Positions 1 through 64,000 of a stretch of 64,000 nt of DNA are shown here, piece by piece. Position 1 is the stretch's first letter; every line of letters starts with the position of its first letter. The DNA is taken from contig NC_089442.1 in assembly GCF_026210795.1 (NCBI RefSeq), forward strand, positions 558,001 to 622,000. The letters are read 5' to 3'. Source of the stretch: Rhizophagus irregularis. Lineage: Eukaryota; Glomeromycota; Glomeromycetes; Glomerales; Glomeraceae. Position numbers and translations under genes: made by a program. Below the pieces are notes generated by a model that was not told where the DNA came from, made no database searches, and saw nothing but the letters and a program-made list of their open reading frames with translations.

Positions 1-879
1 TATGCTTGAAAAATGGCAATACCGTCATAATCTGCAAGATCTTGTATTTTAACCGAATAAATAACTTAACCAGTTAAATTAACCATTTTAACCGGTCTTA
101 ACAGTCCTATTTGAAAGCAAAAGTTAAAACGAAATATACATTTTTAATATGACATAAGTATAATTTGAAAAGAATATATGATGAGAAAATTTTGTGTTAA
201 AAAATTTATGTATAATACATAATATTGTCTATTGCTTTTTTTTTTTACTATATTATTCACCATTAAAACTGAATCTCATATAAGTTATTGAAATTTTGTA
301 TGTTAATTTTATTTCTAGAGTTACTGTTTATTAATAATAAAACAATTTTATGGTAAGTAAGAAAATTTTAATAGTCTAAGAATTTGCATGGATAAAAATG
401 TGATTATTTTCCCTTATTTGGTTGTGTAACTACATGATCCTTTCGTACCAACAGCCCGATTATGCAGCATAAACGCGCGGGAAAACTATATTGTCAATCT
501 AAAAGTCATGCATTTTATTGATGGTTTTATTTTAATGTATGTAATCACTATAAATTAAATACAGTACACTATAAAACTATGTCATGATAATTCTTCGATA
601 AAAATTTATAAAATTTAATTTTTTATAAGTTGGTACATTTAATAAAGATTGTATTTTGTTTATTGCTCAATTACAAACTGACTTTATTTATGTAAAAAAA
701 AAAAATTTACATATACTCTATAATCAGTGTTGAACAAAATACTGTGTATTTAATATAAAATATAAAAATAATATAAATTAAGTTCAATTATATTCTTCCG
801 ATGATGTCTCATTAATAATTTAAATTTAATACATAATTCCTTTGTTAAATCATCAAAATTTGAATAATGGTGCTATGAC
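1..879. other. AT-rich intergenic DNA, no gene seen
   Basis: No open frame with recognisable motifs and no RNA gene was found. This is the 3' flank of the minus-strand kinase locus that ends at 880. It contains homopolymer A/T runs and one slightly GC-richer patch near 420-480 without coding character. Confidence 0.5.
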
Positions 880-1716
880 TTACTCTGTAAAATCAACAAC
901 TTCTACTGAATTATTGCTAATATTATCATACCTTGGGAGATCATTTGTAAATGGATTAAGTAACCGAGAAGTATAACAAGCCTTTGGATGAGTAGTTAAT
1001 TGGATATTATATGGAAATTTTATATTGTTTTTTCTTGCTTCTTCAAATTGTTTATTAATTTCCTCTTTAATTTTAGTAGCATTTGGTCTATTATTTGGAT
1101 TTGGATCCCAACACTTCTTTATCAACTCAATGTAACTTTCGGGTATTTCTTGCTCATTAATTTCAGGTCTAATTCCATTGCATATCTTCAATGCTAAAAT
1201 ATTATCATGAGCACAATTGTCAAAAGGCTGTCTTCTAGTTGCTATAAAATACATAATCATACCAAAACTATATATATCTGCTGCTTGAGTATAAGGATTT
1301 CCTTTTAATACTTCAGGAGCTACATAAGGCATAACTCCATAAATTTTTGTCTCATCTGTATTTTTTATATCACCAACTTCTCTACATAATCCCATATCTG
1401 AAATACATATTTTGTCTAATACATCAGGAATATAATCATCATTAATACATATAACATTATTAGGTAATATTAATATATTTCCTGTGTGCAAATCATGATG
1501 GACCATTTGTTTGTCATGAATAATTTTAAGACAGTCAATAATTTGATCTAATATATATAATTTCTTAAACCAATACCAAGAATTTTTAATATATTCATGA
1601 TTAACAAAATTTCCAGTTGCAAATTGAAGAACTATGATATAATCTTTTGTATATGGATCTTGAGATATTCCATATATTTGAAGAATTCCATTATCACAAA
1701 TAGAATAATTTTTAAC
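880..1716 (-). CDS. Exon 10: catalytic C-lobe and tail of the kinase
   Basis: 279 codons including the stop at 880-882. In order it shows beta4-beta5 (YGISQDPYTKDYIIVLQ), a helical stretch ending KIIHDKQ, the catalytic loop VHHDLHTGN (Asp kept, HRD Arg to His), ISDMGLC in place of DFG, YGVMPYVAPEVL, ADIYSFGMIMYFIATRRQPF, and CWDPNPNNRPNA. The tail has CYTSRLLNPF, also seen as AIYTSRLLNFNNL in the 42 kb kinase. All residues needed for a protein kinase C-lobe are present. Confidence 0.85.
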   Translation of the reverse strand, partial: VKNYSICDNGILQIYGISQDPYTKDYIIVLQFATGNFVNHEYIKNSWYWFKKLYILDQIIDCLKIIHDKQMVHHDLHTGNILILPNNVICINDDYIPDVLDKICISDMGLCREVGDIKNTDETKIYGVMPYVAPEVLKGNPYTQAADIYSFGMIMYFIATRRQPFDNCAHDNILALKICNGIRPEINEQEIPESYIELIKKCWDPNPNNRPNATKIKEEINKQFEEARKNNIKFPYNIQLTTHPKACYTSRLLNPFTNDLPRYDNISNNSVEVVDFTE

Positions 1717-4700
1717 CTAATAAATTTTTAAAAAAAATTGTTATATTAAAAGATATTGATTAGCTTCATTAATTTAAAGGAAATTATACCTCATTTAATA
1801 ATCCATTTGAAATATCTTGTGAATTGTTTAAACATTTTAAAGCAACTTCTATACTATGTTCTCTTTCCAACTTTTCATAATTTGTATTACATCGTAATAG
1901 GCCATTCTTCCATAATGCCGAATATACTGTAGAAAACCCACCTTTACCTATTTTTTTGATATTACTAAACTGGTAGTATGGTATCCATTCAACTATTATA
2001 TCACCACAATTTTCAATTTTTAATTGCATTTCTTGAATTAGTTCATCAATTTTTTTATTTCCACTAGTCCAGTTTGCAAAATTATTTTTCAAATACAGTA
2101 ATTAATCTGGCATGATTTGCACCACTCATTTTCCATATCTGTATATTGATTTCCACATTTTTTGCAATAACAATCTCCAAGAATTATGATATAATCTTTT
2201 GTATTTGGATTTTGAGATATTCCATATATTTCAGGTACAATGTTAATACTATCATGTGATGTACTTTTTGTTGAATATGAAAGATTGCTACTATCTTCGT
2301 TTTGCATATTAATAGAATATGATCTAACCTGTTGAAAATACATAAAAAAAAATCATTAAAATAAAAATATTTAAATTAAATTACAAAGGATCAAAATTTC
2401 ATACCTCATTTAAAAATTCATCAGTAATAATATTATTTCGCGCATTACTTACATATTTTAAAGTAACTTTTTTATTGGGCATTCTATTCCATTCTCCTTG
2501 ATTATATTTTAATGGACCATTCATCCATATCGTTGAATATAACATAGTGAAATCATTTTTACCTATTTTTTCAATATCATTAAACTGGTCGAATGGTATC
2601 CATTCAATTATTATATCATCATAATTTTTAATTTTTAATTGCATTTCTTGAATTAATTCATCAATTATTTTATTTTCACTGGTCCAATTCGCAAAATTTT
2701 CCTTTAAACTATTTATCTGGCATGCTTTACACCAATTATCATAAATTAAATCTTTATAATCTTTATACATTTTACCACAATTTTCACAATGTTTTCCATT
2801 TTCACAAACTAAAATATAATCTTTTGTATTTGGATTTTGAGATATTCCATATATTTTAATATTATTATATTCAATAAAATAAGATTCAACCTGTTAAAAA
2901 AATATAAAGAAATTATTAACAATAATACAATAAGTTAGAAGAACAAGAAGATCTCAAATTAAATTATAAGAAATTAGAAATTCATACCTTATTTACTAGA
3001 AATTCATTGGTAATATTATTATTTTGTAAATTACTTAAATATTTTAGAGTAACTTTATTTGGTTTCATATTATTTTGAGACGTAAAACCATGTTTCACTT
3101 TATTACAATCAAATGAATCATTTATCCTTATTGCTGAATACAATATATTGGCAGAATCATCTTTTCCTATCTCTTTGATTTCACTAAACTGATTAAATGG
3201 TATCCATTCGACTATATTATCATAGTGTCTGTTAATTTTTAATTGCATTTTTTGAATTAATTCATCAATTTGATTATTTCCACTAGTCCAATTCGCGAAA
3301 TTTTTCTTTAAATTATTTATCTGGCATGTTTTACACAATTTTCTATTAGTGTCAGTATATATATTAGCACATTCTCCACAAAAACTTCCATCTTGAATAA
3401 CTAAAATATAATCCTTTGTATTAGGATTTTGAGATATTCCATATATTTTAAGAGTAGATCTTTTAATAGAATAGAATTTAGTTTCCTAAAGTATATTAAA
3501 AATCATTATATTAAAAAATTTATTTAAATTAAATAAACAACTGAAAGAGATTACAAAGAAATCAAAATTTTATACCTCATTTAATATCTTATTGGTGATA
3601 TTTTGTGAATTATATAAACATTTTAGAGCAACTTCTTTATTAGGTATCCTTTTCCATTCATTTTGTATATATCCTAATGGGCCATCTATCCATATTGCTG
3701 AATATAGTAAGGCGGAATCACTTTTACACATTTTTATAATATTATTAAACTGGTTATATGGTATCCATTCAAATATTATATCACTAAAATTTTCAAATTC
3801 TAATTGCATTCCTTGACTAAATTTATCAATTATTTCATTTCCACTAGTCCAATTTGCAAAATTTGATTTTAAATTATTTATTTGACATGATTCACACCAA
3901 TTAAAGTATATTGATGTGTATATTTCACCACACTTTATACAATGACTTCCATTTTCAAGAACCAAAACATAATTTTTTGTATTTGGGTTTTGTGATATTC
4001 CAATTATTCTAGGAGAATTAGAAGTAAAATCGTCTTCATATATTACAATATCATATGGTTTAATTTGCTAAAATATAAGAGATTTTTATTATATATATAA
4101 AGCATTAAAATTGAATTATAAATAAATTTGAAATTTCATACCTCATTTAAAAACTCTTCAGTAATATCTTGTGAATTATGTAAATATTTTAAAGCAACTT
4201 TAATATTGGGTATTCTTTTCCATTTATAATAATCATAATCCAATGGACCATTCATCCAATTTGCTGAATATAATGTAGCAAAATCACCTTGAACTATTTC
4301 TTTAATATTATTAAATTGATTATATGGTATCCATTCGACTATTGTATTATTATACTTTTTAATTCTTAATTGCATATCTTGAATAACTTCATCAATTATT
4401 TCATTTCCACTAGTCCAATTTACAAAATTTTGTTTTAAATTATTTATTTGACATGAATTGCACCATTTATAACTTAAATCTTTATACATTTTACCACAAT
4501 TTTCACAACACCAATCTTGAAGTACTATTATATAATCTTTCGAATCTTGATTTTGAGATATTCCATATACTTTAACAACATTATTGTTAAAATGACTTTC
4601 TCCATAATTATTTGAAAAACGTTTAGATATTTCAATGACACAATCCTTTGTACGTTTTTCATCAATATATGTTTTAATCTGTAAAATATAAGAAGAATCA

Positions 4701-6800
4701 TTAACACTAAGTACTTAAATTGAATTATAAAGAAACCAGAAATTCATACTTCATTTAAAAATTCATCAGTAGTACACTGTAAATTATCTAAGCAAATTAA
4801 AGTAACTTTTTCATTAGGCTTTCTTTCCCATTCCATTTTATCATAATTATAATATAATGGACCATTTACAAATGTTGCTGAATTACTTTCATATAATTCT
4901 TTGATATTATTAAACTGGTTTAATGGTATCCATTCTATTATTGTATCATTTAGTTTATCAACTTCTAGTTGCATTTGTTGTATAAATTCGTCAATTTTTT
5001 CATTTTCACTAGTCCAATTTGTAAAATTTTGCTTTAAATTATTTATTAAACATTGCTTGCACCATTTATACTTCATATTTTTATATATATTATTACAGAT
5101 TTCACAATAACCATTTTGAAGCACTATAATATAAACTTTTGTAGCTGGATTTTGAGATATTCCATATATTTTAATAATTTTATCATATTCAGCGAAATAT
5201 GATTTAATCTGTTATGATATAAAAATTATTTTAATAAAAGCACTTAAATTACAAAAAAAAATCAAAAATTTCATACCTCATTTAGAAATTCATTAGTAAT
5301 ATCATTATTTTGTGAATTACTCAAAAATTTTAAAGCCACTTCTTTATTAGGTATTCTTTTCTGTTCCATTGTATCACAATTATATTCTAATAAACCATCT
5401 GTCCAAATTGCTGAATATAATGGAGTAGAATCATCTTTGCCTATTTTATTGATATTAATAAACTGATTAAATGGTACCCATTCAACTATTACATCATTAT
5501 GTTTATCAATTTTTAATTGCATTTCATGAATTAATTCATCAATCTTTTCATTTCCACTAGTCCAATTTGCAAAATTTTGTTTTAAATTATTTATTTGACA
5601 TGGGTTACACCATTTATACTTTACATCTGTATAAATTTTACCACAGTATTCACAATAACAATCTTGAAGTATTGAGATATAATTCTTTGTATCTGGGTTT
5701 TGGGATATTCCATATAATTTAATAATATAATCTTCAAAAAATTTATCTGTAAAATATAAAAAAATAAATTATTATAATAAATAAAGTATTTAAAATGACA
5801 GTATAGTAATAAAAAATTCATACCCCTTTATAATTTAAAAATTCCTTATTGGTTAGTTTAAAAGAATTATCATTATCATGATATATTAAATTAATTTTTT
5901 CATTAAGATTCCTTTTCCATTCCATTTTATCATAATTATAAAATAATGGTCCATCCATCCAAATTGCTGAATATAATGATGTGCCTATTTCTTTGATATA
6001 ATTAAACTGATTATATGGTATCCATTCAAATATTGTATCGTCTAATTTATCAATTTTTAATTGCATTTTTTGAATTAATTTATCAAATTTTTCGTTTCTA
6101 CTAGTCCAATTTGCAAAATTTTGTTTTAAATTATTTATTTGACATGGTTACACCATTTGTACCTTTTATCTGTATATATTTTACCACAGTTTTCACAATA
6201 ACAATCTTGAAGTATCATAATATAATTTTTTGTATCTATATTTTGAGATATTCCGTACATTGTAATAATATTACTATGATCATCATTTTCAATAGTATAT
6301 GATTTAGCCTGTTAAAATATAAAATAGTTATTTTAATTAAATTAGATCAAATTAGATTAAATTAGATTATATTTTGGAAGATTCAAAAAAAAATTTCAGA
6401 CCTCATTTAAAAATTCATTGATAATATTATTTTGTGAATTAACTAAATATTTTAAAGCAACTTTTTTATTAGGCATCTTTTTCCGTTCTATTTTATCATA
6501 ATTATATTTTAATGGACCATCTGTCCATATTGCTGAACATATTATACTATAATCATCTTTGTCTATTTCTTTAATATCATTAAGCTGATTATATGGTATC
6601 CATTCAACTATCATATCATCGTAATTTTTAATTTTTAGTTGCATTTCTTGAATTAATTCATCAATTTTGTTGTTATCGCTGGTCCAGTTTGTAAAATTTT
6701 GTTTTAAATCATTTATTTGACATGGTTCACACCATTTATAATCAATTTTTGTGTATATTTCACCACATGTTTTACATGTAATATCATCTTGAAATGACAT
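880..6800 (-). CDS. TKL-type protein kinase with a tandem array of Zn-ribbon/N-lobe exons (three exons frameshifted)
   Basis: Ten exons can be placed on the minus strand: 6800-6402, 6308-5824, 5746-5277, 5208-4750, 4678-4142, 4067-3576, 3485-2988, 2890-2405, 2328-1790 and 1716-880. The nine introns are 68-97 nt, nearly all with donor GTATGA or similar and acceptor ACAG or TAG. The first exon has a CxxC...WCxxC Zn-ribbon, the WTSxN linker and a kinase N-lobe. The eight internal exons each begin with kinase beta4-beta5 (YGISQNPxTKxYI), then repeat ribbon, linker and N-lobe. The last exon carries the C-lobe: HHDLHTGN catalytic loop, SDMG in place of DFG, YVAPEVL, and a C-terminal tail. Seven exon lengths divide by three; exons 2, 3 and 9 leave remainder 2, which matches visible indels. 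ATG at 6800 is preferred over one 66 nt upstream because related kinases here start just before the first CxxC. It could be a living, alternatively spliced gene or a decaying one. Confidence 0.75.
1790..2328 (-). pseudogene. Exon 9 (unit I): best-preserved N-lobe, but frameshifted
   Basis: This unit, next to the catalytic exon, has the only intact glycine-rich loop of the array (IGKGGFSTVYSALW), together with EVALKCL. Between WCKSCQIN and LKNNFANW there are eight bases where sister units have three (near 2093-2101), a net +5 shift that creates a TGA. The 539-nt length (remainder 2) agrees. A start inside the unit cannot be excluded. Confidence 0.65.
2405..2890 (-). CDS. Exon 8 (unit H) of the array
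   Basis: 162 in-frame codons, phase 0. It reads VESYFIEYNN, YGISQNPNTKDYIL, CENCGKMY, WCKAC, WTSEN, IGKNDFTMLYSTIW (glycine loop partly lost) and KVTLKYV, ending NE before GTATGA. Confidence 0.7.
2988..3485 (-). CDS. Exon 7 (unit G) of the array
   Basis: 166 in-frame codons, phase 0. The ribbon reads CGECANIY and LCKTC: all four cysteines are present, but the otherwise invariant Trp is replaced by Leu. WTSGN and KVTLKYL are kept and the glycine loop is lost (IGKDDSANILYSAI). The exon ends NKV..AAG|GTATGA rather than GAG. Confidence 0.7.
3576..4067 (-). CDS. Exon 6 (unit F) of the array
   Basis: 164 in-frame codons. The usual ACAG acceptor is mutated to GCAA, but a TTTTAG three bases upstream gives an in-frame replacement acceptor that adds one codon (CAA). 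The beta4 tyrosine of YGIS is changed (IIGISQNP). CIKCGEIY, WCESC and WTSGN are kept. The glycine loop is degenerate (MCKSDSALLYSAIW), while EVALKCL keeps the lysine. Confidence 0.7.
4142..4678 (-). CDS. Exon 5 (unit E) of the array
   Basis: 179 in-frame codons, phase 0 at both ends. It is the longest intact internal unit because its first segment, before VYGISQNQDSK, is extended to about 38 residues. CENCGKMY, WCNSC, WTSGN, a partly degenerate glycine loop (IVQGDFATLYSANW) and KVALKYL are all present. It ends GAG|GTATGA. Confidence 0.7.
4750..5208 (-). CDS. Exon 4 (unit D) of the array
   Basis: 153 in-frame codons, phase 0 at both ends. CEICNNIY and WCKQC keep all four ribbon cysteines, and WTSEN is present. 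The kinase part is the most eroded of the array: the glycine loop is largely deleted (LYESNSATFVNG) and the beta3 lysine position reads KVTLICL, so lysine has become isoleucine. The donor follows GAA (GAA|GTATGA) where other units have GAG. Confidence 0.7.
5277..5746 (-). pseudogene. Exon 3 (unit C) of the array, frameshifted at its 5' edge
   Basis: The body is in good order: YGISQNPDTK, CEYCGKIY, WCNPC, WTSGN, then EVALKFL and FLNE before GTATGA. The first bases after the acceptor read ATAAATTT where unit D reads ATTAAATC, so one T is missing and the exon is out of phase with a phase-0 junction. Its length, 470 nt, leaves remainder 2, matching that loss. Confidence 0.65.
5824..6308 (-). pseudogene. 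Exon 2 (unit B) of the array, frameshifted
   Basis: The exon starts AKSYTIEND, then YGISQN and CENCGKIY. In the second cysteine pair one base is missing near 6147-6151: unit C reads WCNPCQ where unit B loses a C and runs into a stop at the following TAA. The 485-nt length (remainder 2) agrees with the single deletion. The N-lobe further on is also shortened around the glycine loop (KEIGTSLYSAIW), and three residues are inserted before the donor (FLNYKG). Confidence 0.7.
6402..6800 (-). CDS. Exon 1 (unit A): start, Zn-ribbon, kinase N-lobe
   Basis: 133 codons starting MSFQDDITCKTCGEIY. The ribbon cysteines are CKTC and WCEPC, followed by the WTSDN linker, helix IDELIQEMQLKI, the WIPYNQ strand and KVALKYL, which holds the beta3 lysine. 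The glycine-rich loop is degenerate (IDKDDYSIICSAIW). The exon ends on GAG in phase 0 before GTCTGA. Joined directly to the last exon (1716-880) it would encode a complete kinase of about 411 residues. Confidence 0.75.
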
Positions 6801-6835
6801 TGTGATTTCAAGTTGTTTTTTTCGGAAGAGTAATA

Positions 6836-6891
6836 TTATGATCGGCACAAAAAATGCATCATACAAATTACGTTTGATGTGCGACCGATCA
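6836..6891 (-). promoter_or_regulatory. Shared upstream block containing GATCGGCACAAA (plus-strand reading)
   Basis: Plus-strand GATCGGCACAAA followed by CATACAAATTACGTTTGATG lies about 40 nt upstream of the ATG at 6800. A near-identical block lies upstream of the Sel1 gene (23765), and the first nine bases recur upstream of the kinase-Sel1 pseudogene (46667). All three genes are on the minus strand, with the block in the same orientation relative to the gene. A core promoter or 5'UTR function is inferred. Confidence 0.45.
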
Positions 6892-7379
6892 ACAAATTAA
6901 TGACTAATAAACTTTGTTAACGTGACTTTAAATTTACACCAACTTTATTTGTGTGACAAATATAAATCTTGATATGCAATTATGATTTTTTTTTAACACC
7001 CAAGTAGGATTTTAAGGCGATTTTTTACTTTAAATGGCAAAAATTTTGGTTGATCATTTCATTTCAGTCAGATTTTCACCAAAATTTTCTATTCCGTTTT
7101 TGAAAATCATCCACATGCATAGTTGCCATGGATACAAAAAAAATTTCCTTTTTCGTAAAAAACTCTCAGTTTAATCTTAAATATTAGTACAGTACTGTAC
7201 ATGTACATGTACAAGTACAAGAGCAAGAACATGAACATGTACTGTACATGTACATGTACAGAGAAAGTGAACATTCACTATGGAAACTTTTTGCGCTGAG
7301 TTTAACTGTGCTGCTCAAAAAGAATGTTAACTTGACAGATCATGAAATAGTATGTTGATCATTTTTTATTAAAATGTGA
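6892..7379. repeat. Intergenic DNA with a GTACAT-rich palindromic tract
   Basis: No gene is seen. At about 7184-7262 there is an imperfect palindrome made of GTACATGTACAT blocks on both sides of a short AAGAGCAAGAACATGA spacer. It can fold into a long hairpin. Confidence 0.6.
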
Positions 7380-7429
7380 AATTTTTTTTTTTTTTAATTA
7401 AAAATGTCAAAAACTTGATTAAAAAACAA

Positions 7430-7990
7430 AAAAAAATTAAATTTTTTAATTAAAAAAGTCAGACTTGACGTTTTTTGTTATTAAAAATCAAAAAAAATAT
7501 TTTTTTAATTAAAAACGTCAGACTTGACGTTTTTTGTTATTAAAAATCAAAAAAAATATTTTTTTAATTATAAACGTCAGACTTGACGTTTTTTGTTATT
7601 AAAAATCAAAAAAAAATATTTTTTTTAATTATAAACGTCAGACTTGACGTTTTTTGTTATTAAAAATCAAAAAAAATATATTTTTTAATTAAAAACGTCA
7701 GACTTGACGTTTTTTGTTATTAAAAATCAAAAAAAATATATTTTTTAATTAAAAACGTCAGACTTGACGTTTTTTGTTATTAAAAATCAAAAAAAATATA
7801 TTTTTTAATTAAAAACGTCAGACTTGACGTTTTTTGTTGTTAAAAATCAAAAAAAATATTTTTTTTAATTAAAAACGTCAGACTTGACGTTTTTTGTTAT
7901 TAAAAATCAAAAAAAGTGATTTTTTTAATTAAAAACGTCAGACTTGACGTTTTTTGTTATTAAAAATTAAAAAAAAAATGATTTTTTTTT
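7430..7990. repeat. Nine-copy ~60-nt minisatellite with a palindromic core
   Basis: GTCAGACTTGACG occurs nine times at a spacing of 59-61 nt. Each unit is TTTTTTAATTAAAAACG, the core, then TTTTTTGTTATTAAAAATCA and an A-run. The core ACGTCAGACTTGACGT is an inverted repeat (ACGTCA...TGACGT), and the flanks are A/T mirror-like. The array stops a few bases before the left end of the foldback element at 8001. Confidence 0.9.
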
Positions 7991-8000
7991 AATTATATTA

Positions 8001-10245
8001 GTGTACTTTTGGATATAATGGGTGAGTTTATTTTAAAAGCATACTAATACTACTAATAAATTAATAAAAGATTTTTTTATAACAATAGATTGTGTTTAGT
8101 GAGATTTATGAAAAAATTTTATGAAATTTTTTTTAATAAGAATAGCTTTGTATAAAAAATTTTCTAGAATTTTTTTTTAATAACGATATATCAGCATAGT
8201 AGTAATAGTACAATAGGGTTAACTATACAATAAATAGATGTAATAAATTTTTTAGAATTTTTTTTAATAACAGTAAATTGGTATCATATAATAGATGATA
8301 TAATAATTTTTTTTTGGAATTCTTCCTTAATAACAATATATTGGTATAGCACAATAGATAGATATAATAAAAATTTTCTGTGATTTATTGTTTAATTACA
8401 ATAGATTGGTAACTTATTAACGGAAGTTAATAATTTTTTTACAGTTCACAGTAACACTAATATTACTTTTTTTTTTTTTTAATCACAGCGCATTTGCAGT
8501 TTTATTAAAGTAGAAAAATAAAAGAATATGTATACATAGTATGATTCTAAAAGCTACTCTAATATAATTAAACTACAAACCACTCGTCATACGTATAGTA
8601 CCCCACGTGTGCACTGTTGAGTGATCGTTAGACTCAGTAGGTAGACAACATTTGTAATGCGTTATCTTAGCCAGACAGCCCTATCTTCAACATAGTAACA
8701 CTAATATTACTAATAAGTAATGATAATAAAAGATTTTAATTACATTTAATAAGGTTAATAAAAAAATTTTTTGAGATATAATAGAATGGTTTAGTACAAT
8801 AGATAGATATAATAAAATTTTCTGGGATCTATTTTAATAATAACAGATTGGTATAATACAATGTATAGATATAAAAAAATATTTCTGAATTCTTTTTTTT
8901 AATAATAGATTGATATGAATATATTTTCTGGGATTTTTTTTTAGCAATAAGTCATTATATCAGTATAAAATTTTCTGGATTTTTTTTAATAACAATAGAT
9001 CAGTATGGTATAATGGATAGAAATAAAAAATTTTAAGGATTTTTTTTTTAATAACAATACTAGATTGGTATAGTACAATAGTTACTAGATATAAAATTTT
9101 CTGGGATTATTTTAATAACAATAGATAGGTATAGTACAATGGACTAATTTAATAAATTTTTTTGTGATTTTTTTTAATAACAATAGATTGGTAATAGACA
9201 ACTGATTATTAATTTGTTCAATTAATAATTGTTTTTTAGTAAGATTTTTTCCAGTAATACTACTACTAATAGGTATTAATAGTTAGTTTAATGAGTTAAT
9301 AAAAGATTTTTTATAAATAGATTATATTTAATGACATATAAAAAAAATTTTGGGAGATTTTTTTTAATAACAATAGATCAATACAAAAAATTTACTGAGA
9401 CTTTTTTTAATAACAATAGATTGGTATAGTACAATGAATAGATATAAAAAAATTTTAACTTTTTTTTTAATAATAGATTGATATAAATATATTTTCTGAA
9501 TTTTTTTTTAACAATAGAGTCAATAAATCAATATAAAAAATTTTTTTGATAACAACAGATCAGTACTATATTATAATGGAGAGATATAAAAAATTTTTTA
9601 GATTTTTTATTAATATAATAGATCAGTTTCTGGAATTTTTTTATGACAAATTAGTATAGTACAATATATAAAATTTTCTGGGATTTATTTAAATAACAAT
9701 AGATATGATAAAATTTTTGGTGATTTTTTTTTTAGTAGCAATAGATTGGTAATAGACAATTATTACTGTGACCAAAACTGATCTGATTTACCAATTCATT
9801 ATCAGTTCAGTTTTTAATGTTTTCACACCATTTTTTATTGTCTATTACCAATCTATTGTTACTAAAAAAAATAATCACCAAAAATTTATCATACCTATTG
9901 TTATTAAAATAAATCTCAGAAAATTTTTTTATTAACCTTATTAAATGTAATCTATTGTTATAAAAATCTTTCATTTATATTACTTACTAGTAATATTAGT
10001 GTTACTGTGAACTATAAAAAAATCTTACTAAAAAACAATTATTAACAAGTTAATTGTCTACTATCAACATATTGTTATTAAAAAAAAATCCCAGAAAATT
10101 TTTTTATACCAAACTATTACTAAAAAGAAATCTCATTAAATTTTTTATAAATCTCACTAAACACAATCTATTGTTATAAAAAAATCTTTTATTAATTTAT
10201 TAGTAGTATTAGTATAAAACTCACTCACTATATCCAAAAGTACAC
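8001..10245. mobile_element. 2.2 kb foldback transposon, TA-flanked inverted ends
   Basis: The left end GTGTACTTTTGGATATA and the right end (reverse complement) match, followed on both sides by more than 100 nt of inverted similarity, including ATACTAATACTACTAATAAA and ATAACAATAGATTGTGTTT. Both ends abut TA (7999-8000 and 10246-10247), as expected of Tc1/mariner-type insertion. The interior is a series of degenerate 60-70 nt units (TTTTTTTTAATAACAATAGA, TTGGTATAGTACAAT). The inverted pairing continues to a centre near 9770-9838, so the whole element folds back, with a long left and a shortened right arm. No transposase is present; it is non-autonomous. Confidence 0.75.
8467..8693 (-). mobile_element. 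227-bp poly(A)-tailed retroposon (SINE-like) with perfect 17-bp target duplication
   Basis: AGTAACACTAATATTAC occurs at 8450-8466 and again at 8694-8710, directly flanking this insert. The insert begins on the plus strand with a run of T (8467-8480), which is a poly(A) tail on the minus strand. It is visibly more GC-rich than the host foldback element, especially 8580-8690. A target duplication of this length with a poly(A) end is the mark of LINE-mediated retroposition. The minus-strand head (from 8693, starting ATGTTGAAGATAGGGC) may derive from a structured RNA; I could not identify which. Confidence 0.7.
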
Positions 10246-10247
10246 TA

Positions 10248-11566
10248 GTTTTTAGAAAAAATATTAGTTGATTATATAACAAAGAATTTAAATTTATCTA
10301 ATAATGTAAAAATAAGAACTTTTCTGAATTTTATTTTCGATCCGGATAGAAACCGTTGTCCGTCTAAACTAAAAAAAAATTGTACGGTTTTTTATTCGGA
10401 TTATCCGACTTAGAGGATAGATACCGAATCTGGACAGAACATATATATATATATTCTTTTTTGTAGATCGGTTTCAATAAATAAAATTGGTATCATTAAC
10501 TTAATCAAATTCTAATCTTTATTTAATTAAATTCATGGCATTTTTTTTATTTATATTACTAATATAACGTGTGAAAAAAAATAAATTTTAATTTCTTTCA
10601 GTACTATGAATTTTATCTGAATTTTATAAGAAGTTTTAATTTTTGAAATCTTAAAAATATAAATATTTTTGGCACTTGCACAAAATGTTAATACATTATT
10701 ATAATATAAAAATATGTATATATAAAATAACATGAATATAAAGATAAAACACAAAATAAAAAATTGTACAAAAAGATATAAAATCCGGCCATCAAGATTG
10801 CTGCGCCACGAATATGTCAGAGAATCGTTTGTTTGCACCCGGTTTTGCGGGCGTGGTTTTTTGTGTTACAGGGGTGACAAATTGGCACTAAAATAATTCT
10901 GTCCCTCAGATACTTAGTATTTTGAACTCGTGGCTACACGTGATCAGTGACACTTAAATGCCACACGTTCCTTATATGGTGATGACCGACACAAACTTGG
11001 GTGCCGAAATTTTATAATCAATATAATAAAATTATTAATATATTTTCATTTTTTCAAATTTTAATCCAAAATAGTTATAGTTCGTCAATCAAAGTAATCA
11101 AACCATAGAATTGATTCCCTTTTTCCCCTAATATAGAGCGAATAATTTCTTTTTCTATTAACCTCAGCATACGTATGATCTTCATCTTGTATTATAATAA
11201 AACGAATTCATGAATCAATCCGTCCTTCGTTTTGGATTTCGCGTAAAAAATGGCAATGAAGCTAAAGTTTTCACAGAACTTGTTCGCTCAGAATTTTTCT
11301 ACACCCATATAACACTTTTTTTGATAAACGTGTTTTAATATACATTATACCTAGCGGTCAAACTTAACTTTCCATAAAAATAATAATAACACGTAGTAAG
11401 TCTGTAATAATTACGGTGCCTTAATTTACTCGTAAGGTAATATACTGTACATTATGTTATGTTACTGGAAATTATTTGAATAATTCATGTTTTCTTTCTT
11501 GATTCACGTTAATAAAAATTCACCAAAATTATTATTTTTTACTTATTAACATATGAAATGGTTATA
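10248..11566. other. Intergenic DNA, no supported gene
   Basis: A GC-richer patch at about 10790-10990 is open in short frames on both strands (for example 25 codons from the ATG at 10813), but neither shows a recognisable motif. Near 10330-10430 there are short inverted CCGGAT/ATCCG words. Nothing else was recognised. Confidence 0.4.
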
Positions 11567-11890
11567 GAAGAAGAGATAAAGTAAACCGCACAGAATCTTA
11601 CCGACCCCAGAACGCCGCTGTGCATAGTAAATCTATCTTAGAATCCTGGTCCAGAAGTTTTACTTCTCTTGATGAATCAATGGATGGATATCGATTAATA
11701 TCAAATGTTTGAAATAGATAATACTCAACCTCAAAGTCCTTTGAACGCGGTTAGCTTAAAAAAAATCGATATTATTAGTATAAAATATTTTACATGTCGA
11801 ATCAATTCTTCTTGTTACCATGAAACTAGAAAAGAAAAAATTTGTTATACTTATTTAGAAGAATTTTCCATCATCGTAGATATTTTTTAA
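11567..11890 (+). pseudogene. Coding relic or exon of an unknown protein, one frameshift
   Basis: After a TTATAG acceptor-like site, one frame reads RRDKVNRTESYRPQNAAVHS and continues LESWSRSFTSLDESMDGYRL to a TGA at about 11711. The +1 frame continues at once from 11705 with FEIDNTQPQSPLNAVSLKKI to a stop at 11888. Codon choice is less A/T-biased than in the surroundings, which favours real former coding. No family was recognised. It could also be two exons of a gene whose other exons I cannot find. Confidence 0.35.
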
Positions 11891-14132
11891 AGGACAACAA
11901 TACCTATAAAAAATTTTATCCGTTATTTCTGTAAAAACTCCGTAAAAATGAACCTTTCATGGATCCATTCACGGAAAATGTAAATAATTTGATAAATTCC
12001 GTGATATAAGGTTATTAATTCCGGAAATATGAACCTTTTACGGAAAAAGGATGGAATGTAAAAAACGGATCGACTTTTTTTACAGGGCAACATATCACGT
12101 TATGTACAACATTGGCAAAAAAACCTTTCAGTATAAAACAAGAATTTATCAATCAGAATTGTACATCAACAGATTATTTTTTTTGTAATACAAAACAATT
12201 CAAATGAAAAAGTGACCATAAATCTTAATCACACTATATAGCTGCTTCAACATAAAACGTGATTTAACTGTTGGTATATTATTTATTAAATAAACAAAAA
12301 AGTATTGAACCGAACGATAAGGACAATTGTTTTACACATATACAGTAACGTGCTTTTTTTAGTAAAATTATTTATTAAATAACGAAAACTTGGATTTATT
12401 TGTGCAAAAAAAAAAGAAAAGAATTAGTGAAAAAATAATTGATGCCCTCAATCAAAAGATATCAGTTGATTGATCTAGTTGTGTATAATGAATGTTCAAC
12501 AATAGTAGTAATAGTTGCGAACGATCATCGAAAATAATTGTATTTCTTATTCATATGGTGAATAAAATTTAGGTCTTTAATTATCGTTTATATCCACATT
12601 CATTGTAATGTATTGTAACGTTGTTAAAATTATGGATCACGAAATATTAGATCTGGTTGTTAGATGACGTATCAAAGAATTTTCTGTTTTGTAATCAACA
12701 TCATAATGAACGTTGCTATAACTTTTTAAAAATAGAGGTTGATTATTGAAGAATATGTGGAATAATATGAAACACAGGTTCTTCAATTTTTAATTATTCT
12801 ACTTCTATTGTTGTTCTTGGTTGAAATACACGGTTAAATGTGACTGTACAAAACGAGAAATATGGAATAAAAAATTTAATAAACGTGTTCTCATACAATT
12901 AATTATATAACTATATTGCTTGTTCTGTATTGACAGGAGGCAGGATAGGCAAGGTCCTTCTGAGTTTCTACCCTCCAGTCTTTGGCCAACTTACCTAAGG
13001 CTTTCTAAATTTATCCAGTAAAAAGTAATTGCGATTGTTGACATCGTGCTATTTTCTCAGGATACAAAATATTAATATTCTGTAATATTATCGATAATCA
13101 AGTATAATTACGCGTTCTAAGAAGCAGGCACAAACGTAATTTTTCCCAAAAAAGAGTTCCTAGGCAATAGATAACATCATCGTTGCCTTGTTTTATGCGG
13201 CCAATCAACAATATTCTTGTACTACCAATCTGCTACTACTGGACTACGTAATTTTTCGGTAAAATGGTAATTCAACAAAATGGAGTCGGGTAATTTTCAT
13301 GTACGTCATTGGATGTCGGTAAAATGGATACCCGTAATTCACGGGATCCCTCAAAAATCCGACAGATAAATGCAAATCCTATTGAATGACTAAGATTCGA
13401 TCGGATGAATTTGAAAACAGCAAATTTTAATACATTTATTTATTCGTTATATAATTTACCAAACTTCCGGATAATTTAGGGCAAATTTCTGATGCTGGCC
13501 AGAATTATAACTAATATATGGGAGCTGGTTAAAGTTCAGTTAGGATGCATTATATAGTGTTTTATTATAAAAGTTCATTATATCCGGTGAAATTATTTAT
13601 AAAAAGTCGGTTATGGAAATTCTAGTTCGGTACGCTTATAACGAGATTTCGGTACAAATAGGTTCGTTAACCAATGGTGACTGTAATCTAATACGTAGTT
13701 CTTCCAATTAAAATAAAAATTTTTCTTTTATTTAGTTAATTAGAAATTGATGGACAGTTCAATTTGTTTTGTCATAACGTTTAAGTAGTTAAATAAAAAT
13801 TTAACCTTCTAAAAATGCTTATTTGAATAAAAAGATTAAAATTATAGTTAAACACGGTCCTATTTCTTAAAGATTTTGATAATCATCAAAAAAAAAAAAA
13901 AAAAATCATCCCGTTAAAATACTGTGGAAGTCTCATCAACTTTACCAATAGTATTTTAAAAAAAAATTATTATCATTAAATATTTGATGATTTTGATCCT
14001 TTGATAATACGTAAAATTTATAATATAATTAATATGTTTAATCTTTTTTATTCAATAATAAATTTAAAAATAATCTGTAAACTAAAAAAAAAAAAAATGT
14101 ATCGTGTATATATTTTTATATTTAAAGCGAAA
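11891..14132. other. Intergenic DNA, no gene seen
   Basis: 11900-12070 holds two diverged copies of TCCGTAAAAATGAACCTTT-like sequence. 12935-13010 is a GC-richer patch without coding signs. 13478-13512 is one copy of the dispersed GGCCAGAATTA repeat. Long A-runs lie at 13889-13905 and 14082-14097. Confidence 0.45.
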
Positions 14133-41956: not shown

Positions 41957-43292
41957 ATGGGGCTATTCTCCTATGATGAAACTTATGGAAGGTGTGAAGA
42001 ATGCAATCAAATAAATACCGGTCCTGAATGGTGTAACGCTTGTAATGCGACACGTCTCCAAAAAAATTTCAAGTATTGGACGAGCGGTAACGGTGAGATT
42101 GACAAATTTATTCAAGATGCTCAACTATCAGCAAATAAATTCTACAGAATATTAGAATGGATACCATATGAGAGATTTTATGATATTGAATATATTGCAA
42201 AGGGCGGGTTCGGTCTAGTATATAAAGCAAAATGGACTGACGGTTATATACAGAGCTGGAATAATGACAAGCAAAATTGGAATAGATGTCATCCATTAAA
42301 TAAATTTGTAGCTCTGAAAAGTCTAAATAAATCAAAGGATGTCACATTAAAATTTATCGACGAGGTATTATATATAAATTTAATTAAGTTTTGAAATATA
42401 ACTTTTACTAATATATTATTGTTGTTCTTAGGTTACATCTCATCATAAAATATATAATATATCTACTAGATCCATTGTTACATTTTATGGAATAACTCAA
42501 GATCCAGAAACAGAAAATTATATGATGGTTTTGGATTATGCAGAGAATGGAAGTTTACGAAACTATTTAGATAAGAATTATAATAATTTAACATGGAATG
42601 ATAAGATTCTATGTTTATATTGTATAGCAACAGGTCTTCATCATATTCATAGAAATGAGTTAATTCATCGGGATTTACATATTGGTAATATATTAAAATT
42701 TCGTTCAGATATTTGTATAACTGACATGGGATTATGTAGACCAGCTAATTGTGAAAGTACAAAAGATAATACTTATGGTGTTTTACCTTACATGGCCCCT
42801 GAAATTTTGCGAGGACAAAATTATAACAAAGCTGCTGATATTTATAGTTTTGGTATAATTATGTATGAAGTAATTTCTGGATTAAGCCCATTTCATGATA
42901 AAAGTCAGGATGAAGCATTAGCTATAAAGATTTGTCAAGGACTCAGACCAAGTTTTAATATTAAAGTTCCTCAATTAATTATGCATACAATTAAAAGATG
43001 TTTAGATGCAAATCCTTTAACTCGACCAAATGCTCATGAATTAAAGTCTACTATAGAAAAATGGAATGAAAATAACGCAGAATTAAATGAGCAAATTATA
43101 GAAGCAGAAGAAATAAATAATAATTTACCGATCAATACAATAATTTCGATTAGTTTAACTTCATCACATAAAATGAACACACATTCCGAAGCTATTTACA
43201 CAAGTAGATTACTTAATTTTAATAATCTTCCTGAACCAAAAAATTCAGAGGATTATTATAACCAATATGAAAATATATCAGCAGGTATCTAA
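41957..43292 (+). CDS. TKL-type protein kinase with N-terminal Zn-ribbon, intact
   Basis: Exon 1 41957-42364 and exon 2 from 42432, intron 67 nt, phase 0 (GAG|GTATTA ... TTCTTAG). Zn-ribbon CEECNQ...WCNACN (residues 12-34), WTSGN linker, then the kinase: AKGGFGLVYKAKW glycine loop, FVALKSL beta3 lysine, IHRDLHIGN catalytic loop, ITDMGLC in place of DFG, YMAPEIL, ADIYSFGIIMYEVISGLSPF, NPLTRPNA. All catalytic residues are present, so it should phosphorylate Ser/Thr (possibly Tyr) in a signalling role. The frame ends at TAA 43292 (422 aa). Alternatively GCAG|GTATCT to TAATAG splices in phase to 43364-43386 (DLQINIT, stop); the relatives at 54 and 62.6 kb also have a third exon there. It shares one domain plan with the array kinase at 0.9-6.8 kb. 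Confidence 0.9.
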
Positions 43293-44769: not shown

Positions 44770-46584
44770 CTAATTAAGATATTTATTAATACTAGTTCCA
44801 TTTCCGACTTCATAACGATAACAATATGCTAAGTTATTTATTCCACTTAAAATACCAAAATCTCCAGCCTTTTGATACAATTCAAATGCTTTTTGTTTAT
44901 CAACATAAGTTCCAGCTCCAACTTCATAACAATTTGACTAAACTACTAATTCCAAATGCATTTCTAATTTTGCAGCCTTTTGATATATCTCATATGACTT
45001 TTCTTTATCAACATTTACTTCAATTCCTAAATTAAGAAAATCTCCTAGTAAAAGAACAGAATTTAAATTAGTCTGATTATATAATAACCAATTATAAATT
45101 TGTCGTGGAGTAATGTCATGATCATTAAGGTAATCAAGAACTTCTTCCTTTCCAGTTTCTTGTTCTAAATTATCAATAAGAGCAACTAAATCATCAACTA
45201 CTATTTGAAAATCATTCTCATACAATGATATTGATGGTTCTATTTCTTTTATACTTATTTTATTAACATTTTAAATAAGTTCATGTAATGAATTATTAAG
45301 TGGTTGTTTACTTGACAATTTATTTAAAATTATTACATTTAATTTAGCAATAACATCACTAATAATCGAACGATTATCTGGTTCATGATTCCAACAATCT
45401 GAAAAAATATAATAAAGTACATATATAAATAATTAATAAATAAAATAAATAATTCAAATTATATTTACCAATATAAATTTTTACATAATCTATAGGAGTA
45501 TTGGCGACGGGTTTTTCTCTAAGACCTTGTAAAATTTTCAAATCCAAACATGTATCAGATGATTCATTGTAAAAAGATGACTGACCACTAGATATTTCCC
45601 ACAAGAATACACCAATGCTATAAATATTACTCTTTTTGTTCAATAAATATAATGGTATTTGGTGATTATTGATTCTTTTTTGTTCAAATAATTTTGGATC
45701 AATAATATAAGCAACCATGTCAAAGAAATTTGATTGAAGATTGGTTGATTCTTCAATTTTTTTTGATAATCCAAAATCTGTTAATTTGATAATCCCTTGA
45801 TGAACTAATTCATTGTTTGAGTGCTATAATTAAATGTGAAAATTTAAAAAAAAGAATAATAAATTATACACTACTTAAGATATAATATAAATTAATTACC
45901 AAATTATGATGCACAATTTCTTTTTCATGTAAAGATGATACAGCACGAGCTAATTGAAGTGCAATATTTAACTTATTGTCCCAATTTAAACTATCAAAAT
46001 GTTCTTTTGAATAGTTTCGTAGAGTACCATTATCAGCATATTCCATTACTAACCAATAATTTTTTGAATCATCATCTTGGTTTTCTACTAAAAAGATAAA
46101 AAAGAATAATATTATTAGAGGTAGTATGAAATAATATCTTTTTTTTTTCTTAAAAAAAGTCAATAACTAATAATTATCATACTTATAGTAATACCACAAA
46201 AACGAATAATATTTTCATGAAAATCCATTTCATATTGACGTTTAAGCTTAATCATGAATAATAAGAATTTTTAAATTAGGCAACGCAATATATCATAAAT
46301 ATAAAAATTAATATTGTAAATAACAGTATAAAAATGATTACTTCATTAACGATTTCTTTGGTTGTGACATTATTGATTAGAAAAAGATTTTAACGCTAAA
46401 TGATTTCGAGAATCTTTCCAGTTTGCACGATAAACTTTTTTAAAATTTCCGAAATCAATTTCTTGGATATTTCTGAAATGGTTGTATTCATAATATTTAA
46501 AATAATTTTTTGAAATAGCATCTTCAATCCAAATACCCGTTCGTCTGAATTTTCAGTGACTTTAATTTCAAAGTTATTAGACAT
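44770..46584 (-). pseudogene. Decayed TKL pseudokinase-Sel1 fusion gene
   Basis: Five exons: 46584-46342, 46246-46183, 46087-45900, 45823-45469, 45398-44770, with GT-AG, phase-consistent junctions. Exon 1 has the N-lobe (FGNFKKVYRANW, HLALKSF) but two single-base shifts, one just before WIEDAISKNYF and one after LALKSF. Exons 2-3 give FHENIIRFCGIT and YWLVMEYADNGTLRNYSKEH. The catalytic loop is VHHNLHSNN, so the HRD aspartate is Asn. DFG is intact (LTDFGLSKK), and the activation segment ends with IDPK in place of APE. The last exon has CWNHEPDNRS, a TAA where a Gln codon fits (HELI-stop-NVNK), then a Sel1-type region with a compensating pair of single-base shifts near 44935-44965 and a truncated end. 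It is probably dead; sequencing error cannot explain the Asn, the stop and four shifts together. Confidence 0.8.
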
Positions 46585-54034: not shown

Positions 54035-55570
54035 ATGGATTTTGTTCAGATTGTTAACCAACCAAACTGGGATAATTGGTGATTATCATTTTTATTTTCG
54101 TTGATTTAGTGGAATTTTATACGTTCAACAGAAAATAGTGAGCGTTTGTCAATTAAATTATATGGGAATTACTCAAGATCCAGAAACATTAAAATATATG
54201 ATTGTAATGGAATATATGGAACTTGGTAGTTTAAAATCCAACTTAATGATAAAAAATGCAATCCAATTAATCCAATTAATCCAATTGATGAATATTATAA
54301 TTTATTTTGGATAGCAAAATCACTTTTAGTTTTTACATAAATGTAATTTAGTTCATTGTGATTTCCATAGTGGTAATTTAATTTTTTCAAATAACTTGAA
54401 CATTTATTTATATAAGTGATTCTGGATTAAGTAAACAAGTAGATAAACTAACGATGTTTATGGAGTATTTCCTTATATTGTTCCGGGAGTATTATGTTAG
54501 TATTGGACGCCATAATGGTTGAAAGGTTGTAACCGTATGTCGATAAAGTTGTAAATTTACACCTCGTTGTAATTGGTGTAATGTCCGAGATGAGTGTAAT
54601 GTCTGATGAATACTAATCGTAAATTAGAATTATTAGATACTTTTAAGAATAAGTTCTAAGTATAGAAGTGAGGTGATATTCACAATTTTTCGAAAAATTA
54701 ATAATAGGACCCGCTTACATTTATGCCTAACTTACAACAAAAACTTAATTCCGGCTGGAAATTAAGCTTTTTATCTGGGCAATTGTGAGACACATATTAC
54801 CTGTGATGTCAATCACAAATTAATTACTGATCACGCTTATTTGAAATACAACCACGGCATAATTTCGTATTACAACTTTAATATGGCATTTTCGTAATTT
54901 TGAGCAGTAATCCGAAACTAGGGTTGCAACCCAGGTTTTAATCTGAAATGCCGTAATTATTACTTACGGCGACCAACATTATATTGCGTGGTAGACCATA
55001 TACAAAAGCTGCAGGCATATATTCCTTCGGTATTATTATATGGGAAATGACTACTAGAATTCCTGCTTTTAATAGTATGCCTCATGATTTTGATCTTTCC
55101 TTGGCTATCTGTAGAAGATCTAGATCAGATATCATTGAAACTTCGAAGATTTTTGATGATACAGATATTCAAAAAGTATATGAAGACACAGAAACTGAAT
55201 ACATAGAATTAATGAAAAAATGTGGGACTCTAATCCTGGTAAAAGACCGAAAGCTGAAGAATTATATGAAAATTTTCGTAAATGGTTTGGAATATTCCTA
55301 GTTGTAAATTAATATCATACCAAGTAAATATTAAATCATTTTATTTTATTTTATTTTATTTTTATTATACTCAAAGAGAGCAGTACATAATATTAAATCA
55401 TTTTAAGAATAATATGTTTTCTTTTTTCTATTATAGAAAATGAGATCTTTATTAAAAACATTCATATCTTGTTATGCAAGTAGAAAATTGATTATGCTGA
55501 AAAGATAAATGAAATTTTAGTTCAAGAAGGACTAATAATTATAAATAATGATAATATGAACAATAGTTAA
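54035..55570 (+). pseudogene. TKL kinase pseudogene, close relative of the gene at 62.6 kb, split by a MITE
   Basis: The first ~40 nt match the Zn-ribbon start of the 62.6 kb gene (TGTTCAGATTGT...CCAACC). Sequence then jumps to that gene's intron end (TTTTCGTTGATTTAG), so most of exon 1 is deleted. Exon 2 follows: MEYMELGSLKSN, a CCAATTAAT x3 expansion, a degraded catalytic loop (HCDFHSGN-like), SDSGLSK (DFG changed), then the MITE at 54497-54980. The C-lobe resumes at 54984 as RGRPYTKAAGIYSFGIIIWE and shifts frame near the end. A third exon 55437-55570 (GLIIINNDNMNNS, TAA) with an in-frame TAG is recognisable. It is clearly dead, but documents the third exon that the window edge cuts off in the intact copy. 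Confidence 0.85.
54497..54980. mobile_element. 484-bp MITE inserted in the kinase pseudogene, hAT-like
   Basis: Comparison with the uninterrupted copy (GTATTACGTGG at about 63570) pinpoints the insertion. It is flanked by GTATTATG (54489-54496) and ATATTGCG (54981-54988), diverged copies of the 8-bp target GTATTACG. Ends are imperfectly inverted: TAGTATTGGACGCCATAA on the left, AATGTTGGTCGCCGTAA when the right end is read in reverse. An 8-bp duplication fits the hAT superfamily. No coding capacity. Confidence 0.7.
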
Positions 55571-62645: not shown

Positions 62646-64000
62646 ATGAGTGAATTTGATGAAATTATATTATGTTCTGATTGTAATCAACCTGAAACTG
62701 GGGTTAAATGGTGTCGAAGTTGCAATTCTAAGCGGTTTCGACAAGATTTCAGTAAATGGACTAGTGGAAATAATTTTGTAGATAAGTTTATACAAGACGC
62801 TCAATCAAAAGCAAGAAACCATTTGGAAGTTATAGAATGGATTCCATATAATCGTTTAAGGAATATACAATATCTTGCTAAAGGTGGATTTAGTATAATT
62901 TATAAGGCCGTTTTGTTAGATGGATTTATCAATAAATGGGATAAAGAAAATAAACAATGGGAGAGATATTATAATGAAATTAAGGATGAAGATTACGAAG
63001 ATGCGAAAAAAGGTAACATTGAGTCACCTCTTAATGAAAATGAAAAACATGGATATAATATTGTATTAAAAAGAATAAATAATTCCTCAAATATCAATGA
63101 TGATTTTTTAAATGAGGTAAATAATTTTATAAATAGATAGATTATTTTATTTATTAATAAATACAAATTAACATATTTATTTTCGTTGATTTAGTTGAAA
63201 AATTATTTGAATTTTGTACGTTCAACAGACAATAATAAACTTCTTTCGATTAAATTACATGGAATTACTCGAGTCCCAGAATCAGATTATATGATTGTAA
63301 TGGAACATATGGAACTTGGTAGTTTAAAATCCAATTTAATGGTAAAAAGATGCAACCCAATTGATAAATATTATAATTTATACTTTATAGCACAATCACT
63401 TTCAAAATTACATAATTGTAATTTGATTCATGGTGATCTCCATAGTGGTAATTTACTTTTGTCAAATAATTTAATTGCTTATATAAGTGATTTTGGATTA
63501 AGTAAACCAGTAGATAAACCTACTAAGCCAAATGTAATTTATGGAGTACTCCCTTATATTGCTCCAGAAGTATTACGTGGTAGACCATATACAAAAGCTG
63601 CGGACATATATTCCTTCGGTATTATTATGTGGGAAATGACTTCTGGAATTCCTGCTTTTAATAAAATGCCTCATGATCTTGATCTTGCCTTAAAGATTTG
63701 TCAAGGATTACGACCAGAACTTGTTGAAGTTCCAAAGATTTTTGATGCTAAAAATGTTCAAAAAAAATATGAAGACACAGAAGCTGAATACATAGAATTG
63801 ATGAAAAAATGTTGGGATTCTAATCCCGATAAAAGACCGAAAGCTGAAAAATTATATGAAAATTTTCGTAAATGGTTTGGAATTATTCCTAATACATCCA
63901 TACCAGGTTAATATTAAAATCATTTTAAGAATAATATGTTTGTTAATTTGTTAATAATTTATTTTCTTTTTTTCTATTATAGAAAATGAAACTTTTATCG
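62646..64000 (+). CDS. TKL-type protein kinase with N-terminal Zn-ribbon (3' end outside the window)
   Basis: Exon 1 62646-63116, exon 2 63195-63906, exon 3 starts 63983 and leaves the window. Junctions are phase 0 (GAG|GTAAAT ... GATTTAG) and phase 1 (CCAG|GTTAAT ... TTATAG). Zn-ribbon CSDCNQ...WCRSCN, WTSGN, AKGGFSIIYKA glycine loop, then an insertion of about 30 acidic residues (starting YYNEIKDEDYEDAKKG) before IVLKRI with the beta3 lysine. Catalytic loop IHGDLHSGN (HRD Arg to Gly, Asp kept), ISDFGLSKP with true DFG, YIAPEVLRGRPYTKAADIYS, and CWDSNPDKRPKA. It should be an active kinase in signalling. Without splicing the frame would stop at 63909; the pseudogene at 54 kb shows the expected third exon. 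ATG 62646 is the first ATG before CSDC. Confidence 0.9.

Follow-up and report, generated by a model that had tools for sequence, protein, structure and literature searches.

The kinase N-lobe is one half of a two-lobed enzyme. In tandem pseudokinase-kinases, e.g. JAK (JH2-JH1), GCN2 and plant tandem kinases, a degenerate whole bilobal kinase domain lies ahead of an active kinase. Arrays of the Dscam type consist of tandem homologous exons with matching phases. The present analysis concerns a kinase locus of the arbuscular mycorrhizal (AM) fungus Rhizophagus irregularis, in which exons for nine N-lobes lie ahead of one C-lobe exon. It is located on the minus strand between positions 6800 and 880 of a stretch of 64,000 nucleotides (nt) (C14:558001-622000, the window) within the searched genome of 146,748,485 bases in 32 contigs. 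An expanded kinase repertoire of 2,533 members in R. irregularis (Manley et al., 2023; PMC10234402) and an expansion of tyrosine kinase-like members (PMC4219462) are described in the covered parts of two reports. An N-lobe array is not mentioned in the covered parts of these reports or of PMC8647823, and a literature search by title and start of abstract yielded nothing on one.

Judged from sequence, the locus is probably a damaged member of a poly-N-lobe family, in which one active kinase carries a frame-safe, tandem-duplicated chain of N-lobes devoid of an ATP pocket. The array is a family trait, not a single odd locus. Upstream N-lobes differ in kind from the last N-lobe in that their ATP pocket is lost. 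With the tandem pseudokinase-kinases, these arrays share a degenerate kinase element ahead of one active domain in one chain. However, the degenerate element is an N-lobe alone, with one array (L037) apart, and 3 to 12 such copies precede the last N-lobe in the arrays examined. As in Dscam-type arrays, the exons are tandem, homologous and of matching phase, whereas the exon beside the constant exon is of a distinct, pocket-retaining type, unlike the others at the ATP site. Compared with the described kinase repertoire, species and family are the same, and the last module together with the C-lobe forms an ordinary PF07714 kinase. The scanned upstream modules differ by lacking a Pfam kinase match above the cut-off.

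Architecture of the array locus

The array comprises ten exons, a first exon, eight internal exons and one C-lobe exon. They are given below with window positions, followed by a comparison gene outside the array.

6402..6800, minus strand: exon e1, ATG at 6800, Zn-ribbon and N-lobe from beta1 to helix C, without beta4-beta5; donor GTCTGA
5824..6308, minus strand: internal exon u1, beta4-beta5/Zn-ribbon/N-lobe; a 1-nt loss in the Zn-ribbon near 6147 breaks the frame (aligned with L011, L005 and L008)
5277..5746, minus strand: internal exon u2, open body; acceptor near 5746 one nucleotide out of phase compared with L011 and L005
4750..5208, minus strand: internal exon u3, open, both ends phase 0; degenerate Gly-loop and beta3 Lys
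4142..4678, minus strand: internal exon u4, open, both ends phase 0
3576..4067, minus strand: internal exon u5, open, both ends phase 0
2988..3485, minus strand: internal exon u6, open, both ends phase 0
2405..2890, minus strand: internal exon u7, open, both ends phase 0
1790..2328, minus strand: internal exon u8 with the last N-lobe, Gly-loop GKGGFSTVYSA and VALK intact; a 5-nt gain near 2096-2100 breaks the frame
880..1716, minus strand: C-lobe exon, beta4-beta5, hinge, catalytic loop HHDLHTGN, DMG and APE; stop codon 880-882
41957..43292, plus strand: ordinary two-exon sister kinase, intron at the homologous place in phase 0, one N-lobe with intact Gly-loop

Nine minus-strand repeats follow one another at a spacing of 544-615 nt. 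A preliminary description of the locus had internal exons beginning with beta4-beta5 and finishing with a Zn-ribbon and an N-lobe up to helix C, and this order is borne out, with short introns between the exons and the last codon of helix C as terminus. Exons typically end in ...FLNE before GTATG and start with (I/V)KSY after AG, thus the exon border lies directly after the helix-C glutamate. The repeat unit had also been called out of register with the domain. A phase-0 chimeric exon is indeed arranged head to tail; its register is odd in appearance only, as the two-exon gene has its intron at the same place. The two-exon sister kinase shares the Zn-ribbon, the N-lobe, and the place and phase of the intron with the array, and differs by its one N-lobe, its intact Gly-loop and the absence of a chimeric exon.

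The notion of half-kinases joined head to tail does not hold, since the exon that follows can supply the beta4-beta5 missing from each N-lobe core (beta1 to helix C). Complete N-lobes in a row, rather than half-kinases, are thus predicted for the product. In a permuted fold, the leading beta4-beta5 of an exon would pair with its own beta1 to helix C and not with the preceding core. A continuous chain topologically permits either pairing, and a single-exon model of low confidence places the strands in both parts. This arrangement is nevertheless very improbable: it leaves the e1 core and the beta4-beta5 of the C-lobe exon unpaired, and the ordinary two-exon gene has the standard order.

The reading frame of the window copy, as assembled, terminates inside u1. 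Eight extra exons had been described as in frame. All eight internal exons are present, but u1 and u8 are frame-broken and the u2 acceptor is out of phase. The body is unbroken in six of the eight, five of which have an acceptor in phase 0 as well. Owing to the frame-breaking indels in u1 and u8 and the shifted u2 acceptor, the window copy is probably inactive. The 5-nt gain in u8 is not a homopolymer error. For the assembly, Illumina polishing and a uniform Nanopore and Illumina coverage are given in the covered part of its report (Manley et al., 2023; PMC10234402), which also describes Nanopore RNA reads of R. irregularis DAOM197198. An assembly artefact, by which repeats were collapsed or wrongly multiplied, is barely credible as the source of the array. 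Repeats are the usual source of such errors, but DNA identity between whole internal exons of the window is about 74% (median 0.74), and sister arrays on several chromosomes share the order. The reported coverage and polishing argue against an artefact as well.

An intact sister array and its predicted product

The array L011 on another chromosome (C20, about 245,194-250,948, minus strand) matches the window array exon for exon, 1:1 over nine N-lobes. Its exons join without a stop into 1,701 amino acids with nine modules and one C-lobe. A product of nine Zn-ribbon/N-lobe modules and one C-lobe, as anticipated for the window, is thus encoded intact in this sister, while the window copy is frame-broken. 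The modules M1-M8 are 43-57% identical to the last module M9, all eight at E < 1e-45, which excludes chance repetition. It is this identity to M9 that marks the upstream modules as kinase in nature. With one C-lobe, L011 does not contain the two or more complete kinase domains of a tandem pseudokinase-kinase.

M9 and the C-lobe together constitute a full PF07714 (PK_Tyr_Ser-Thr) domain, covering positions 5-257 of 258 with 116.5 bits (cut-off 23.1, E 1.6e-33). Five of the eight upstream L011 modules were scanned with Pfam and had no kinase match above the cut-off; M3 reached 13.7 bits to PF07714 (E 0.04). As only M9 with the C-lobe passes the cut-off among the modules scanned, a Pfam search would report one ordinary kinase. 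In the window, the last N-lobe piece scored 17.4 bits in the Pfam scan, below the cut-off, and the best match to the NOB1-like Zn-ribbon PF08772 had 18.9 bits against a required 24.9.

The family across the genome

Modelling covered 41 stretches, namely the window, L001-L013, L015-L040, and L014 joined with its flanks. The first 20 were picked for several unit hits, hence arrays in all of them are unsurprising. Twenty further stretches, none of them among the first, were selected by eye from the C-lobe hit list at approximately regular intervals. Arrays were present in 40 of the 41 modelled stretches (20 selected for multiple unit hits) and in 19 of the 20 sampled close C-lobe relatives; L026 has one N-lobe. 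In addition, 12 PF07714 loci were sampled from 147 matches, all of the two-exon kind (match start at profile position 48 or later). Ten had one N-lobe (split in L047), one was an array (L044), and in L045 no N-lobe was found. Arrays are therefore the rule among close relatives of this C-lobe, and the best-scoring kinases seldom have one.

Of the 264 units counted in the 41 stretches, 252 are whole; seven further units cut by a stretch edge are excluded. Within their stretch, 31 of the 40 arrays are free of broken units. The stretches L021-L040 are 4 kb long, and unit numbers there are minima. The longest array has 13 N-lobes. A CxxC...CxxC motif occurs in 169 of 216 whole internal exons. The match pattern in L023, L028, L033 and L040 suggests many internal exons without a Zn-ribbon, in which beta5 runs straight into the WTS helix.

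No upstream unit with a C-lobe, and so no upstream pseudokinase with both lobes, was found within the stretch in 39 of the 40 arrays. The exception, L037 (C5:5254400-5258400, reverse strand), has an open frame at 1559-2636 coding for a degenerate C-lobe (HRN for HRD, no DxG, APE kept) and then an N-lobe. Downstream of the fused frame lie a further two N-lobes and a C-lobe exon. L037 resembles a short array to whose front a whole pseudokinase has been fused, and may be a case of a tandem pseudokinase-kinase. A rule of N-lobes only is, in view of this frame, not absolute.

L007 and L008 (C14:710-725 kb) are neighbouring arrays with several identical unit matches, regarded as products of a local duplication or rearrangement of recent date; a C-lobe was not recognised in the L008 stretch. 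The units of L013 are closely packed except for a 1.2-kb gap between those at 2773 and 3975, which may reflect an insertion or the loss of a unit. Genome-wide, loops of the HxD[FL]HxGN type numbered 1,735 (control 1) and motifs of the WTSGN type 2,230 (control 31), the latter pattern also catching an apparently unrelated repeat and missing degenerate units. No relative was confirmed in contigs of bacterial and archaeal genomes (323 pattern stretches) or in viral contigs (81), which says nothing on other Glomeromycotina.

Loss of the ATP pocket in upstream N-lobes

The comparison comprised 260 aligned N-lobes, 40 last (one of them the single N-lobe of L026) and 220 upstream. Matches ending before model position 145 and L008, having no C-lobe, were left out. 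The second Gly of the Gly-loop is present in 38/40 last versus 12/220 upstream N-lobes; in 16 of the 220, no residue is aligned there. Both glycines occur in 32/40 versus 4/220. The two last N-lobes lacking the second Gly belong to L010 and L034, whose last exon is frame-broken and was read partly or skipped. The beta3 Lys is found in 40/40 last versus 189/220 upstream N-lobes, and the helix-C Glu in 39/40 versus 141/220. Retention of this Glu is not clean evidence, because its codon is also part of the donor site.

In six columns, the share of the commonest residue drops by more than 0.4 upstream: G, G, G and F of the Gly-loop, the beta2 Val and the Ala of VALK. In known kinases, these positions line the ATP site. 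The Zn cysteines are retained upstream in 98-100% of the units with a residue there (167-175 of 220), and WTS, EWIPY, SAxW and YGISQNP are conserved. With the second Gly missing from most of them, the upstream N-lobes show the loss of catalytic residues within a kinase fold, one of the traits of a pseudokinase domain. The catalytic-loop Asp was identified in 38/40 C-lobes, 35 by pattern and those of L004, L034 and L036 by eye; L037 and C3big have Asn. DMG is present in 19/20 full-length C exons. In a tree omitting N-lobes under 70 residues, the last N-lobes cluster (5 label changes versus 37 in shuffles) and do not form one clade; the tree has few columns and many weak forks.

Exon phase and splice junctions

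With no phase imposed, donors were found at 258 of 270 junctions, and 256 of these were in phase 0. A simple scanning rule, likewise without an imposed phase, placed 237 of 256 first acceptors in phase 0, with a median intron of 71 nt. Imposing phase 0 allowed 264 of the 270 junctions to be modelled at a median of 72 nt; a few of them were forced, e.g. u1-u2 of the window. GTAT donors occur at 179/218 upstream and 32/39 last junctions, hence the donors are alike.

A median intron of 72 nt leaves little room between units for a promoter or a terminator. Separate short genes, one per unit, would be in line with an open frame of its own in each unit. This explanation has a negligible probability, as the gaps between units are intron-like and internal exons open, behind an acceptor, with the latter part of an N-lobe.

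The upstream exons may instead constitute a pool of alternative exons, as in Dscam, from which cassettes or mutually exclusive exons are drawn, one or few per mRNA before the C-lobe. As the exons have phase-0 ends at nearly all junctions, they can be combined in any subset without loss of the frame, and exon sequences differ widely within many arrays, as the identities within the window illustrate. However, upstream N-lobes placed next to the C-lobe should keep the ATP pocket, and the second glycine is nearly always missing from them. Upstream donors are as good as those of the last junction, and the last N-lobes cluster apart from the upstream ones. An exon pool is therefore considered unlikely.

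Selection on upstream units

Three groups of sister arrays provided 15 pairs. As pairs share branches and some copies are broken, the values are estimates and not independent tests. The pooled ratio of nonsynonymous to synonymous substitution rates (dN/dS) of upstream units was 0.35-0.61 over the 15 pairs, and that of the C-lobe exon 0.30-0.85. Neutral simulations with intron-like or AT-rich mutation gave 0.76-1.22. With 120 simulated neutral exons per setting, none stayed open in any of the six settings. The divergence used in the simulations corresponds to that of groups 1 and 3 and exceeds that of group 2.

The upstream exons could also be untranslated, either as decaying relics, left as neutral by-products when exons were duplicated, or as silent donor cassettes for recombination. 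The broken window copy and the 12 broken units among 264 are compatible with such a state, as are identities of up to 98-100% between some upstream exons of an array and dN/dS values close to or above 1 for a few single exons. Yet at the divergence of groups 1 and 3, no simulated exon stayed open, compared to 252 of 264 whole real units. Pooled dN/dS is below neutral, and most fold columns are conserved as in the last N-lobe. Relics or silent cassettes are accordingly judged quite improbable.

Origin and change of the arrays

From sequence comparison, the internal exon looks like exon 2 of a two-exon kinase, truncated at the hinge and joined to exon 1 immediately behind the start of the latter, given the intron place and phase shared with the gene at 41957-43292. 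The sequence at the joint is TTCAAGAT at the e1 start and in u2, and CTTCAA at the hinge of the C-lobe exon. It suggests a short stretch common to both parts at the founding duplication.

The nearest upstream unit of a sister array was at the same position for 22/24 units in the window, L011 and L005, for 15/15 in L017-L019, and for 23/24 in L001-L003 and L012. Unit order was thus largely kept after duplication of whole loci. Between the window and L007, which differ in length, the nearest unit was at the same position in 9 of 14 cases. Overall, 99 of 215 upstream units had their nearest unit inside the same array, throughout in L015, L029-L031, L034 and L036. Upstream exons within L013, L034 and C3big reach 98-100% DNA identity.

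L044 (C2:5077400-5081400) is an array within a subfamily with single N-lobes. The Gly-loop of its last N-lobe is intact, while the upstream ones are degenerate. In the tree, the upstream units form their own group (support 94), and the last N-lobe is nearest to single-N-lobe kinases. This placement suggests a second, independent origin with the same split between last and upstream N-lobes.

Surroundings of the array

A 60-nt tandem repeat occupies 7418-7995 of the window in 9.6 copies (95% match), with an inverted repeat ACGTCA...TGACGT per unit. AT-rich repeats of about 62 nt follow at about 8100-9420, just beyond the 5' end of the array. Another kinase of the family, with one N-lobe, is located at 62670-63878 (plus strand). 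Fragmentary, relic-like kinase matches occur at 45512-46513 (minus strand) and 54978-55223 (plus strand). Scans for tRNAs (positions 1-12000) and for Rfam families (whole window) gave no hits.

Proposed mechanism and significance

The proposed mechanism starts from an ordinary two-exon kinase, exon 1 with Zn-ribbon and N-lobe to helix C, exon 2 with beta4-beta5 and C-lobe. The gene would have gained a chimeric exon, in which the beginning of exon 2, up to a cut at the hinge, is followed by exon 1 sequence. Further tandem copies of it would remain in frame because both ends are in phase 0. All exons would be spliced, exon by exon, from one pre-mRNA into one mRNA. The product would carry Zn-ribbon/N-lobe beads without an ATP pocket, followed by one catalytically competent kinase domain. 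The N-lobe chain probably has a docking or regulatory role; as the least certain step, the beads may act as multivalent surfaces for partners or for the kinase domains of the family itself. Bead number and sequence could then change quickly, with catalysis undisturbed.

Several observations weigh against a translated chain of kinase N-lobes. The window copy, as assembled, is unable to make the poly-N-lobe product. Broken units (12/264) include the last N-lobe exons of L010 and L034, the C-lobe of C3big is in pieces, and L037 breaks the pattern by an upstream unit with both lobes. The Zn motif is absent from 47 of 216 whole internal exons. Smaller conservation drops of 0.2 to 0.36 occur at several columns outside the ATP pocket. 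The pooled dN/dS of 0.35-0.61 indicates moderate constraint, and single upstream exons reach 0.89-1.23 in a few pairs. A profile of the eight upstream L011 modules found no solved kinase in the PDB. The AlphaFold2 model of one internal exon, built from eight window rows, was poor, with a predicted local distance difference test (pLDDT) score of 49. Foldseek with this low-confidence model gave no match at E 0.001 or better; weak ones include tyrosine-kinase chains over about 65 columns.

A broader proposal is made tentatively, with slightly less than even confidence. The N-lobe would be an autonomous repeat module, of which up to a dozen ATP-pocket-less copies, usually with Zn-ribbons, are carried on one active kinase, and which arose at least twice in one fungus. 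Like other fast-evolving recognition repeats, the exon repeats could vary freely in number, and they may serve self/non-self or partner recognition in the fusing hyphal network.

Selection seems to keep the N-lobe fold in repeats that have neither a C-lobe nor an ATP pocket, beside one copy that has both. The arrays thereby allow asking what an N-lobe does alone. As Pfam assigns the scanned upstream modules no kinase match above the cut-off, the findings suggest that part of the AM fungal kinase expansion is hidden from domain annotation. The phase-0 chimeric exon represents a frame-safe route by which kinases may grow regulatory arrays.

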